From contig NZ_CP053557.1 of assembly GCF_014524545.1 (NCBI RefSeq), positions 1,947,501 to 2,011,500 of the forward strand: a DNA stretch of 64,000 bases, given 5' to 3'. Of this stretch, positions 17,659 to 36,817 are shown one piece after another. Under the pieces are notes generated by a model, which was not told the DNA's origin, made no database searches, and was given only the letters and a program-made list of their open reading frames with translations. A program made the position numbers and the translations under genes. The number at the start of each line of letters is the position of its first letter. The first letter of the stretch is position 1. This DNA comes from Exiguobacterium sp. Helios. Lineage in GTDB: Bacteria > Bacillota > Bacilli > Exiguobacteriales > Exiguobacteriaceae.

Positions 17659-18456
17659 TCAAGAACATTTATACGAGCGGATCGAACCGTGTAAATCACA
17701 GATGACCGTCATGAATTCTTGACCGTCCTTAAAGCAGATTTGATGGCTTCTGCCGTTTTTGGAAGTCGTAATGTCATCAATCCATAGCCGCGTGGCGTCA
17801 GCAGACGATAACATCGCCACTTTATCACGAATCAAAAACAGATCAAATGGTAACAGATTTAAGGACTGGATGACTAAGCCGTATTTCCGGAACAGCGGAT
17901 CTAGTTGATAATGCGATAAACTGTATAAACTTTTTTCCATCCCGCCGATTAACAATTGAATCGAGTGACACGGTTCCCGGCTGTCGATCCGCTCTTTTTG
18001 TAAAATGATTTGACCGTTGACACCAGATCCGTCGAAGACACGCTGCATTTTCTCTTGATCGACACGGAGTGCTCCCGGTTTAACATGCAAAACCAAATGA
18101 GCAAATTCGGCATAGTCCGGTTTTCCGATTTCAAGCGCTTGAATATGTCTCACTTCTTCTCGTTCAATCAATTCGATCAGTCCGCGTTCCACCTTGTCCG
18201 ACACGTCTAATTCAGAAAAAAGACGGACATCGATCACGTATTGGTCGACGACGGTATTGACTTCGAGTGTATACATCAAGTGCTGGTTCTGTTCCTGATC
18301 GAGTGTCAGACGATTTAACAGCAGTTGATGAAGCAGTTCAACCGGTGTATGCGATGAAAATTGACTTGTATAAATCAAGTGTTTGGCTGTCAAAGAATGA
18401 TTGGTTTTTAATCGTGCGCCTTTTACCATATATACGTTCACTTTATAATTTTGCAT
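17659..18456 (-). CDS. unknown protein, 265 residues
   Basis: I do not recognise this family. The protein begins MQNYKVNVYMVKGARLKTN; AGAGAAGGTGGCATT precedes the ATG. It looks soluble, with alternating beta-like stretches (YVIDVRLFSEL, FAHLVLHVKPGAL, NGQIILQKERID) and no signal peptide or membrane helix. The C-terminus has FMTVICDLHGSIRSYKCS. Codon use looks like its neighbours. It is probably monocistronic, since the YteA-like gene downstream has its own promoter-like element and no clear terminator lies between. Upstream (18457-18658) I see only AT-rich DNA. Confidence 0.75.
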   Translation of the reverse strand: MQNYKVNVYMVKGARLKTNHSLTAKHLIYTSQFSSHTPVELLHQLLLNRLTLDQEQNQHLMYTLEVNTVVDQYVIDVRLFSELDVSDKVERGLIELIEREEVRHIQALEIGKPDYAEFAHLVLHVKPGALRVDQEKMQRVFDGSGVNGQIILQKERIDSREPCHSIQLLIGGMEKSLYSLSHYQLDPLFRKYGLVIQSLNLLPFDLFLIRDKVAMLSSADATRLWIDDITTSKNGRSHQICFKDGQEFMTVICDLHGSIRSYKCS

Positions 18457-18658
18457 AATGCCACCTTCTCTTAACTAAGAATCGGATCGGAGAATAGTTC
18501 CGTTTCTATAGCGTACATCGCAATAACCACAAAAAATATTCGATAACGAATATTCTAAATCTGTTATACACAAGACTATTGATTTATGTTAGAGATTTGG
18601 AAATTTCAACAGCATCTCGATGTTTACAGTGTTTGGCTACAATTTTCATGTCTTTATA

Positions 18659-34223: not shown

Positions 34224-34853
34224 ATGAGCCGTTTGTTATTTATTGAAGCAAATGATAGTACCCATCAAAAGAAAGGAATCAGCTCGCACATGAACGAAGC
34301 GTTTCTCGCGAGTTACCGGACACATCATCCGGATGATGAAGTCGTCGTACTCAATTTATTCGAGGAACGGTTACCGTTTTTTGATTTACGTCTCGCCACT
34401 GCTGCCGCCAAACTATTTCGTGGAGAATCCGTCGAGACCGATGAACATGTGCCGCTCGACAAATTACAAGAATATCTGACCGGGTTTCTCGACTCGGATA
34501 AAGTCGTTTTTTCTTTCCCGATGTGGAATCTGACCGTTCCGGCTCCGCTTCATAATTATATGGACTATCTTGCACAAGCAGGTCAGACGTTTCGTTATAC
34601 AGCAGAAGGGTCTGTCGGCTTAGTAACGGGCAAACAAGTTTTGTTGCTGCATTCACGCGGCGGGGACTATTCTACAGCGGATAAAGCTGATTCCGAACAT
34701 GCCGTTCGTTACATGCTCGATATCCTTCGTTTCTTCGGGATTGAAGATGTCCAGACCATTATCCTGGAAGGACATCAGCAATATCCTGACCGGGCGGAGG
34801 AACTCGTCAAAAAAGCCCTCTCTGCATGTGAGAAGGCCGGGGGAACATTTTAA
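34224..34853 (+). CDS. azoR: FMN-dependent NADH-azoreductase
   Basis: A 209-residue flavodoxin-like quinone reductase of the AzoR/AcpD family. It contains FSFPMWNLTVPAPLHNYMDY, the typical FMN-contact region, and HSRGGDYS. It reduces azo dyes and quinones with NADH in the cytosol and is usually linked to thiol or electrophile stress. GGAGTGTTATGTC precedes the ATG. It is monocistronic and converges with the regulator gene at 34850, overlapping it by 4 bp. Confidence 0.93.
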   Translation: MSRLLFIEANDSTHQKKGISSHMNEAFLASYRTHHPDDEVVVLNLFEERLPFFDLRLATAAAKLFRGESVETDEHVPLDKLQEYLTGFLDSDKVVFSFPMWNLTVPAPLHNYMDYLAQAGQTFRYTAEGSVGLVTGKQVLLLHSRGGDYSTADKADSEHAVRYMLDILRFFGIEDVQTIILEGHQQYPDRAEELVKKALSACEKAGGTF

Positions 34854-35728
34854 AATGTAAACAGTAGAAATCGTTCTTTTCCTTTAAGAACGATTTCTTC
34901 ATATGTGTGTAGATGAAATGCACGAAACAAAGCATATGCTATCGTATAGTCACGTTGAATGGGTGAGCTATCGTCAGTCATCATCACCTCATAAAAATAA
35001 CCACGTTGATAATAAAAATGAGCGACGAAAGAAGCATCATTTAACGATAAGCTATAGCTTAATCCTTTTTCCGTTATTTTTAAGCCGGCTTCGTATTTTT
35101 TCTCATAGGTTAACAATTGAGAATGGTTGTAATAAATCTTGATCAATTGTTTTTTCAATTCTTCCGTATCGTACGTCAATTGTTCCAATTCTTCATATAC
35201 TTTTTCAGCCAGATGGTACTGCTCATTTTCTGCGTATAAATTCGAGATGGCCATCTTTATTCGAATATACATCTTGGGCGATTCGTACCAAATATCTTCC
35301 CGATCCGTCAATCGTGATAATAAAGTGGAAGCAGTACGGTAATCAATTTTATCTGTTTTCACCTCTAAAAGTATTGAAAAATACGCTTTTAGCAAAAGGA
35401 TTTCGTTATGATGCGTTGCATCATTTTTCGATAATTCTTGTTTCATCTCTTGATATTTTTTCTCCCGAAACAGACTCGATAAATGGTTATCAGTCTCTCG
35501 AAAGGTGTCACTCTCTAATTGATCCCGGAATAGTAAAGAAAGCGGCACGCGCAATCGCTTGGCAATTTGTTGTAACAAATCGATTGTTGGCGAATTACGT
35601 CCATTTTCAATCTTACTGATTTCTGCCTGACTACATATCCCATCACACAATTCTTTTTGTGTCATTTTCTTTTCTTTACGAATCCGTTTGATTTCATTTC
35701 CAATCATGTGAGGCAATGATTTCATCAT
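34850..35728 (-). CDS. XRE/PlcR-like regulator with TPR region, copy 2
   Basis: A 292-residue protein. Residues 8-66 form an XRE helix-turn-helix (IGNEIKRIRKEKKMTQKEL, GICSQAEISKIENGRNSPTI). The rest is all-helical and TPR-like, the layout of PlcR/Rgg (RNPP) receptors that bind exported peptides. The HTH is nearly identical to that of the gene upstream, 41 bp away, while the helical part is less alike; the two arose by duplication. No short peptide gene is visible close by, so the ligand is unknown. The region looks more AT-rich than its neighbours. Confidence 0.85.
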   Translation of the reverse strand: MMKSLPHMIGNEIKRIRKEKKMTQKELCDGICSQAEISKIENGRNSPTIDLLQQIAKRLRVPLSLLFRDQLESDTFRETDNHLSSLFREKKYQEMKQELSKNDATHHNEILLLKAYFSILLEVKTDKIDYRTASTLLSRLTDREDIWYESPKMYIRIKMAISNLYAENEQYHLAEKVYEELEQLTYDTEELKKQLIKIYYNHSQLLTYEKKYEAGLKITEKGLSYSLSLNDASFVAHFYYQRGYFYEVMMTDDSSPIQRDYTIAYALFRAFHLHTYEEIVLKGKERFLLFTF

Positions 35729-35769
35729 AATTTACCTTTCTCTTCTGACTATTGTTGCATGACTAGTTC

Positions 35770-36654
35770 CTAGATTGATTTTAATGAAAAATACATCACA
35801 TCTGATAAGTGATCCTCTAATATGGTCGCAAACGAAGTGTTTTCTGTAGCCAAAAAGATTCCGTAGGCAAGCGTGTATGCTTCTTGAATCAACTCTAAGG
35901 AGCTGTTTAACTGTTCCAATGCGTATCCCCGCTGATAATAAAAGTGTCCGAGATAACTTAAATCATCCAAATGATTACTTTCATTAATCGCCGTCTCAGT
36001 TTCTTTTAAGATCGCAGAAAAATCTTTTTGTTTGATTAAGTTTCGGATGTAATTGTATAAAATCTTCAATTTCATTTTTTTATATTCGACCGTATGATAG
36101 TCAATCTTAAACAACATTGAATAAATTGAATCCGCATGGCGGTACTCACCATAGTTCGTATATAAAATCGCAATCGACATCTGAATTCTTAAGTATAGTA
36201 GAAACGATTCTTCAATTAATTTTTCTTCTGCAGTTATATTCAAAAGTTGTGAAATACACGTTCGGTAATCAATGATGTTTGTTTTTTCTTCAATGATCAA
36301 TTTGTGATAGCGCAATAAAATGCTAATTTCTTTATCCGTTTCTGTTATCAGATATTGATCAATCTGTAGAAATATTTCAGAATAACGGTTTAGGCGCGTA
36401 AGTTGAATTATTTCTTGATCAATCATGCGAAAATTTGTTTTTTTGTTTTCATTTATAAAAAAAGACGAGACCGGAGTGTGTAACCGTTCTGCAAGTTGTT
36501 GTAATAAATCAACCGTCGGTGAATTACGTCCATTCTCGATTTTACTGATTTCTGCCTGACTACAAATTCCCTGGCACAGTTCAGCTTGTGTCCAATTTCG
36601 TTCTTGCCGGATCCGCTTAATTTCGTTACCAATCGAAATATTTAATTGATTCAT
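35770..36654 (-). CDS. XRE/PlcR-like regulator with TPR region, copy 1
   Basis: From the ATG at 36654 (GAAGGAGACATCC upstream) the protein has 294 residues. The HTH shows IGNEIKRIRQERNWTQAEL and GICSQAEISKIENGRNSPTV. The helical C-terminal part, ending near MYFSLKSI, has repeated 30-40-residue helical pairs such as HLDDLSYLGHFYYQRGYALE, also present in copy 2. It lies just behind the tRNA-Thr terminator, so its promoter region is very short. RNPP function is inferred from architecture. Confidence 0.85.
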   Translation of the reverse strand: MNQLNISIGNEIKRIRQERNWTQAELCQGICSQAEISKIENGRNSPTVDLLQQLAERLHTPVSSFFINENKKTNFRMIDQEIIQLTRLNRYSEIFLQIDQYLITETDKEISILLRYHKLIIEEKTNIIDYRTCISQLLNITAEEKLIEESFLLYLRIQMSIAILYTNYGEYRHADSIYSMLFKIDYHTVEYKKMKLKILYNYIRNLIKQKDFSAILKETETAINESNHLDDLSYLGHFYYQRGYALEQLNSSLELIQEAYTLAYGIFLATENTSFATILEDHLSDVMYFSLKSI

Positions 36655-36686: not shown

Positions 36687-36740
36687 AACAAAAACAGGTC
36701 CTCCGTTCAAGTGATTGACTTGTGACGGAAGACCTGTTTA
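36687..36740 (-). terminator. terminator after tRNA-Thr
   Basis: Stem AAACAGGTCCTCCGT/ACGGAAGACCTGTTT, nearly perfect, followed on the minus strand by TTTTTGTTT. Confidence 0.88.
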
Positions 36741-36746
36741 TTTTGA

Positions 36747-36817
36747 TGCTTCCGGCGAGAATCGAACTCGCACTGCAGCATTACCATTGCTGAGGTCTGC
36801 CATTAACCTACGGAAGC
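36747..36817 (-). tRNA. tRNA-Thr (anticodon GGU)
   Basis: Acceptor stem GCTTCCG/CGGAAGC and anticodon stem CAGCA/TGCTG are perfect. Loop ATGGTAA gives anticodon GGU (codon ACC). The T arm is GCGAG-TTCGATT-CTCGC; the D loop has GG. It is only 71 nt, with a four-base variable loop and a short D loop. No CCA is encoded. G1-C72 and C2-G71 fit threonine identity. Confidence 0.92.

Follow-up and report, generated by a model that had tools for sequence, protein, structure and literature searches.

The described system closest to the receptors presented here is PlcR-PapR of the Bacillus cereus group, whose receptor, like the two genes analysed below, joins an HTH to a TPR domain. The PapR7 peptide of B. 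cereus is ADLPFEF, with LPFEF as its core (PMC6568020), and the PapR glutamate is read by residues Lys89, Gln237 and Tyr275 of PlcR (PMC6568020). The PlcR box TATGnAnnnnTnCATA is described as a 16-bp palindrome with a 6-4-6 layout, for which B. cereus has 69 candidate and 28 active boxes (PMC2464732), and peptide-receptor pherotypes are known in this system (PMC3171730). Multi-copy repeats have been reported in 3 of 15 atypically large propeptides of the PlcR subfamily, with up to six copies (PMC9765709), and Phr propeptides are reported to contain up to eight peptide copies (PMC11343458). Eavesdropper, or orphan, RRNPPA receptors, which have no neighbouring propeptide gene and are found on mobile elements and chromosomes, are also described in PMC9765709; in the part of that text covered here, they are quantified for Rap and AimR, with PrgX mentioned.

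Taken part by part, the circuit that we find in Exiguobacterium is of known kinds (the receptor family, the repeated precursors and the orphan receptors), and it is their combination that is new. Pherotypes occur as in PlcR-PapR, the LPxE[FYH] core of the Exiguobacterium precursors resembles the PapR core, and the box has the same 6-4-6 layout, with TATTCG as half-site in place of TATGnA. Two target promoters are conserved, as compared with the many boxes of B. cereus. Unlike PlcR-PapR, Exiguobacterium possesses a tandem array of orphan receptors without peptide genes, and its precursor is convergent and multi-copy. As in the multi-copy RRNPPA propeptides, each precursor carries several copies of the mature peptide; compared with those described in the sources above, Exiguobacterium has up to nine copies, multi-copy organization in 17 of 17 full precursors, and pherotypes linked to the receptor. 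Its orphans differ from those described in PMC9765709 in being of PlcR type, in forming a chromosomal tandem array and in swapping their ligand domains. The name Exiguobacterium is absent from the main texts of PMC11343458, PMC9765709, PMC12700828 and PMC10075063 (supplements being outside the scope), and a literature search of limited reach found no published description of the circuit. What the analysis adds is an array found across the genus, a pheromone cassette far from it and a box linking the window, that is, the whole 64,000-nucleotide stretch of Exiguobacterium sp. Helios that was analysed, to this cassette.

In the window, a first-pass annotation had noticed two adjacent regulators. 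Gene B (35770..36654, minus strand, 294 aa) and gene A (34850..35728, minus strand, 292 aa), the first and the last gene of the array, are codirectional ORFs separated by 41 bp (35729..35769, minus strand). The Pfam profile RNPP_C (PF18768) is covered nearly entirely and above cut-off in both proteins (1.1e-20 in A, 1.2e-20 in B), HTH_3 is also above cut-off in both, and the N-terminal HTH and the C-terminal RNPP_C/TPR region together span their full length; NCBIfam gave only HTH-level matches, all below cut-off. The best relative of known structure in phmmer is PlcR (4.8e-27 for A and 1.7e-22 for B, over about 275 residues). AlphaFold2 models built from 27-row alignments are all helical, with a mean pLDDT of 90.7 for A and 91.0 for B, and Foldseek places PlcR entries first for both (TM 0.57-0.63 by query length in the top two rows). 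In VIA-align, the Z score against PlcR is 23.5 for A and 24.3 for B, the next entries reaching 18.4 and 17.3 and the best Rgg entries 16.2 and 15.2. The whole-chain rmsd of 7-11 Å to PlcR entries and the TM of about 0.6 are expected if the HTH is placed differently. A and B are full-length PlcR-subfamily RNPP regulators, which agrees with the earlier proposal of RNPP-type receptors with a TPR-like C-terminal domain; the structure comparison with PlcR and Rgg that had been suggested does reveal a TPR-like fold and ranks PlcR best, so that the label "PlcR/Rgg-like" is right for PlcR and not for Rgg. Judged by family and fold, both are likely peptide sensors. Over 59 HTH columns, the identity between A and B is 75%, the GICSQAEISKIENGRNSPT stretch being the same in both, as against 36% for the TPR part, which bears out the similar HTHs with divergent ligand domains that had been noticed.

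Both genes are AT-rich, as had also been remarked: their GC content is 35% (A) and 33% (B) compared with 45.6% for the window, and among 211 stretches of 900 bp, three are as low as A and none as low as B. We searched 19 whole Exiguobacterium genomes with A, together with the stretches around the matches, and found the array site downstream of a tRNA-Thr gene in all of them, with one to six intact receptor genes each (62 in total, counting those of at least 275 aa). That the locus keeps its place throughout the genus shows that the arrangement is more than chance. RNPP_C is present in all 19 genus genomes and in none of 19 sister-genus genomes. Recent acquisition, which the first-pass annotation had offered to explain the base composition, is not supported, given this distribution and the AT-richness of array genes on average (mean GC 34%, range 30-47%, 61 genes). 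Relaxed selection, offered beside it, is visible in part, with broken receptor copies in at least four of the 19 arrays (L044, L045, L050 and L054). Downstream, the array faces a convergent flavodoxin-fold gene (34224..34853, plus strand, identified with Pfam), which is its neighbour in 18 of 19 genomes; this side is readable in 18, the contig of L057 ending at the array. On the tRNA side lies a PLP gene, joined in 18 of 19 genomes by a putP gene.

In 19 of 19 genomes, the array directly follows the tRNA-Thr(GGT) gene (36747..36817, minus strand), and the distance from the end of this gene to the first array HTH is about 117 nt in the window and 105-121 nt in 17 of the 18 others. In L050 (G008), the spacer between tRNA-Thr and array measures 367 nt, about 250 bp more than in the other 18. 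A terminator- or attenuator-like hairpin between tRNA-Thr and gene B (36698..36733, minus strand) can be aligned in all 19 genomes; 4 of its 14 pairs show compensatory changes, and the inner 5 pairs are absent in one genome. It is not among the elements returned by the promoter/terminator scan, whose rule allows loops of 3-8. The scan of the window, in which promoter-like sites were no more frequent than in shuffles, found no minus-strand site of this kind from tRNA-Thr to B, and the nearest one precedes the tRNA. Transcription from the tRNA-Thr promoter may read through into the array. A tree of 82 proteins, made by a quick method with long branches flagged, unites the 61 array proteins with 285 aa or more in one group (SH-aLRT 99) that splits into several old subfamilies, and the 19 single-copy receptors described below in a separate one (SH-aLRT 97). 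Gene B and its counterpart in the sister genome G014 are 95% identical at the DNA level up to about codon 57, after which no DNA match is found, indicating a swap of the ligand domain behind a constant HTH in this one traced case.

Peptide genes near the array were sought by applying a simple signal-peptide rule to ORFs, namely a charged start followed by a 12-residue hydrophobic core, and the longer gaps of some arrays were additionally read by eye. Outside the receptor ORFs, no signal-like ORF was found in 18 of 19 arrays nor in the window, including the gap between B and A and the region that starts about 300 bp before the pair and ends 200 bp behind it, in line with the earlier remark that an adjacent peptide gene is absent. 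As a control, the same rule recovered the precursor in 16 of 19 single-copy loci. In L049, a 30-aa ORF on the antisense side of a gap, with no PapR-like end, is unconvincing as a peptide gene, and two antisense ORFs inside the receptor genes, with LPFEF or LPSEF near their ends, have no signal-like start and look like chance. The PapR-like pattern YTNCCNNNNGARYWYTRR occurs at 10 sites in the Helios genome compared with 13 for the reversed pattern; three of the 10 end in TGG rather than a stop, and among the other seven, a plasmid 49-aa ORF alone is plausible as a precursor. An LPLEY-stop at C1:849450 was discarded, there being no ORF of at least 8 aa at this place.

Beyond the array, the same genome contains two further RNPP_C receptors, one chromosomal and one on a plasmid. 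The chromosomal, single-copy receptor lies at C1:2839931, 0.86 Mb from the array (L061 5830-7434; G000:C1:2834000-2848000), and is followed by a convergent precursor made of a hydrophobic N-terminus and nine NNLPTEF copies in 45-bp repeats. A protein search of the genome with this precursor returned its own locus only. The claim that no peptide gene is visible thus stands beside A and B and is refined at the level of the genus, whose PapR-like pheromone gene adjoins this third, single-copy paralogue. Orthologues of the single-copy receptor are present in 19 of 19 genomes, 17 of them with a full precursor of 2-9 peptide copies; one of the remaining precursors is partial at a contig end, and in the other case the contig ends before it. 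The precursor cores are LPTEF, LPYEY, LPAEF, LPPE[HY], [LI]PLEY and [LI]PFEF.

We compared the distribution of these core classes with trees, using the 18 genomes in which the core could be read (G007, whose precursor was not read, was dropped). On the tree of single-copy receptors, the core class requires 5 changes, which is the minimum, compared with 10.5 in shuffles, and none of 200 shuffles was as low. On the species tree, built from four chromosomal proteins (putP, GGDEF, PLP and the 265-aa protein described below), it requires 11 changes compared with 10.3, and all 200 shuffles were as low. Because the peptide type fits the receptor tree and not the species tree, receptor and peptide travel as a pherotype cassette; they co-vary at the single-copy locus across the 18 genomes compared. 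The B-type array gene, the sole array gene type tested, does not follow the pherotype (9 changes, 200 of 200 shuffles as low, on 13 rows omitting two from G007 and the second G010 copy). In two pairs of close genomes, G011/G012 and G001/G002, flanks with 87-100% identity enclose about 1.1 kb of DNA that is 54-77% identical and runs from just behind the receptor HTH to just past the precursor; the pair formed by the Helios genome and G014 displays the same drop (63-80%) between flanks that are less even (74-99%). Such a low-identity block within similar flanks indicates that the pheromone and the ligand domain of its receptor move jointly, as one cassette.

The box ATATTCG-N4-CGAATAT is present in the pheromone promoter, with no more than one mismatch, in all 17 upstream regions that are complete; the canonical PlcR box is absent from this promoter, and the TATTCG-N4-CGAATA variant with the same layout is present instead. 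The Helios genome has two perfect copies of this palindrome, one of which lies in the window (18536..18553, no strand assigned), none with one mismatch, and 21 sites at up to two mismatches compared with 4 for the reversed pattern. Across the genus, at up to one mismatch, there are exactly two sites in 17 of 19 genomes and three in the other two, and none for the reversed control. The two sites conserved in all 19 genomes are the pheromone promoter and the region upstream of a 265-aa gene; in G007 and G013, the pheromone-side box starts a separate contig and the neighbouring gene was not read. The second box stands 76-79 bp before the start of the 265-aa gene in all 19 genomes (79 bp in the window). 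The 16-bp core of the box has a third exact copy in the Helios genome (C1:2246207) and one extra copy in G015, and single cores occur in 2 of 19 sister genomes, which have no RNPP_C proteins. These additional cores, like the third one-mismatch site of two genus genomes, count against the reading favoured below.

The 265-aa gene (17659..18456, minus strand), a predicted output gene by virtue of its upstream box, is genus-specific: among 121 genomes searched, it is present in 19 of 19 Exiguobacterium and in none of 102 other relatives. Its product matches no Pfam family above cut-off (PF03771 comes closest, at E 0.08), and searches of NCBIfam, PHROG, PADLOC and the PDB sequences gave no match either. 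An identification as ComK was set aside, with no PF06338 match at E <=10 at the locus and an hhalign probability of 0.2% obtained from 19 rows of low diversity. Two ComK-family genes are located elsewhere in the genome (G000:C1:1004662 and G000:C1:2675360). In the array promoter region of the Helios genome, no box was found within 3 mismatches, and there is thus no sign that the circuit controls the array. Array and single-copy receptors have the recognition helix SQAE[IL]SK[IV]E in common, which makes a shared box likely, and A and B are therefore likely to bind the same box as the single-copy receptor. The residues beside this helix differ (SGTHSPT in single-copy receptors versus NGRNSPT in A and B), and the helix match does not prove the same site.

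We favour, with a probability of about 0.6, a role for A and B as orphan array receptors with diverged ligand domains that modulate a small pheromone circuit via a shared box. They would bind the palindrome in common with the single-copy PlcR-like pheromone receptor, and the targets of the circuit would be the multi-copy PapR-like pheromone gene, as a feedback, and the 265-aa gene. Each of them would sense another cue, which may be a foreign or processed peptide or its own tail, and ligand domains would be exchanged as modules behind a constant HTH, in the pheromone receptor and in one array case. Exiguobacterium would thereby gain a PlcR/PapR-like quorum-sensing circuit that is complete and testable and has two conserved target promoters, in which pherotypes are swapped between close genomes and orphan receptors possibly tap the same switch. 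Such a circuit makes testable how receptor-peptide specificity evolves, what purpose orphan RNPP receptors serve and what the 265-aa output protein does.

A and B could instead be extra receptors for the self-pheromone NNLPTEF, so that one signal would evoke graded or staged responses. A PapR-type pheromone does exist in the genome, A and B share subfamily and recognition helix with its receptor, and Asn201 and Gln241 are retained in 61 of 61 array receptors. The positions that read the glutamate in PlcR give a different picture, Lys89, Gln237 and Tyr275 aligning with K, H and Y in A and with N, H and F in B. Gln237 is kept in 19 of 19 single-copy receptors and in the plasmid receptor, whereas in the array, which departs here from PlcR as well, it is replaced by His in 55 of 61 members (A and B included) and kept in 6. 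Similarly, Lys204 is Lys in all 19 single-copy receptors and Gln or Arg in 50 of 61 array receptors. Lys89 is not constant among the single-copy receptors either (Lys in 2 of 19) and is kept in A along with Tyr275, so that peptide reading by A may partly survive. Given that the B-type array gene is also unlinked to the pherotype to which the single-copy receptor is linked, the array ligand domains, as their residues suggest, have diverged, and they probably read the LPxE[FYH] pheromone differently from the main receptor, if at all; a reading of the self-pheromone is unlikely, and less likely than modulation with other ligands.

Less likely still is functionless decay, in which the array would be a relic of receptor duplication that is under relaxed selection and now does little. 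The broken copies, the low GC, the strong divergence of the ligand domains and the lack of an own promoter visible in the window are compatible with it, yet every one of the 19 genomes keeps at least one intact array gene, several old subfamilies persist as intact ORFs over the genus, the HTH is better conserved than the TPR, and both the array position and the upstream hairpin are conserved, all of which makes a relic improbable. That the TPR domains of the array sense a non-peptide ligand or a protein partner would fit the loss of the glutamate reader in 55 of 61 receptors and the failure of the signal-peptide rule to recognise a cognate peptide gene in the 19 arrays, but the RNPP_C domain and the full-length PlcR fold argue against this, and we consider it very improbable. 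To our knowledge, the characterised HTH+TPR relatives among RNPP proteins so far bind peptides.

Within the preferred reading of A and B as orphan modulators, the own tail named above as a possible cue has a recognisable form. In most array receptors, the C-terminus is a hydrophobic tail of the form phi-L-F-x-phi (LLFTF in A, where phi stands for a hydrophobic position), which matches the hydrophobic positions of the PapR-type LPFEF without its glutamate, in proteins where Gln237 is His. In A, this hydrophobic extension (FLLFTF, 34853..34870, minus strand) is modelled as a coil with high pLDDT, the mean being 94 for residues 281-290 and 87 for 291-292; in B, the corresponding means are 87 for residues 281-290 and 64 for 291-294. 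Scored by eye, the tail is present in 50 of 50 array receptors without Lys204 and in 2 of 11 with Lys204, an association confounded by clade. A speculative idea, which we hold to be a long shot, is that array receptors carry a built-in pseudo-pheromone, the tail filling their own groove; they would then bind or compete at the pheromone box independently of any signal, and their ligand domains would be swapped as cassettes while the HTH stays constant.

The plasmid receptor (C2; L062 7484-8588, G000:C2:62000-78000), which has His at position 275, forms a PlcR/PapR-like pair with a convergent 49-aa ORF ending in ELPFEH, and a PlcR box with one mismatch precedes this ORF; the closest relatives in the plasmid collection are found in Planococcus, with 52% identity. 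On plasmid pE73 of Exiguobacterium alkaliphilum, an RNPP-like receptor (L161 3992-4882) with 33% identity to the plasmid receptor adjoins genes annotated as O-methyltransferase and ThiF-family, in an annotation without a peptide gene.
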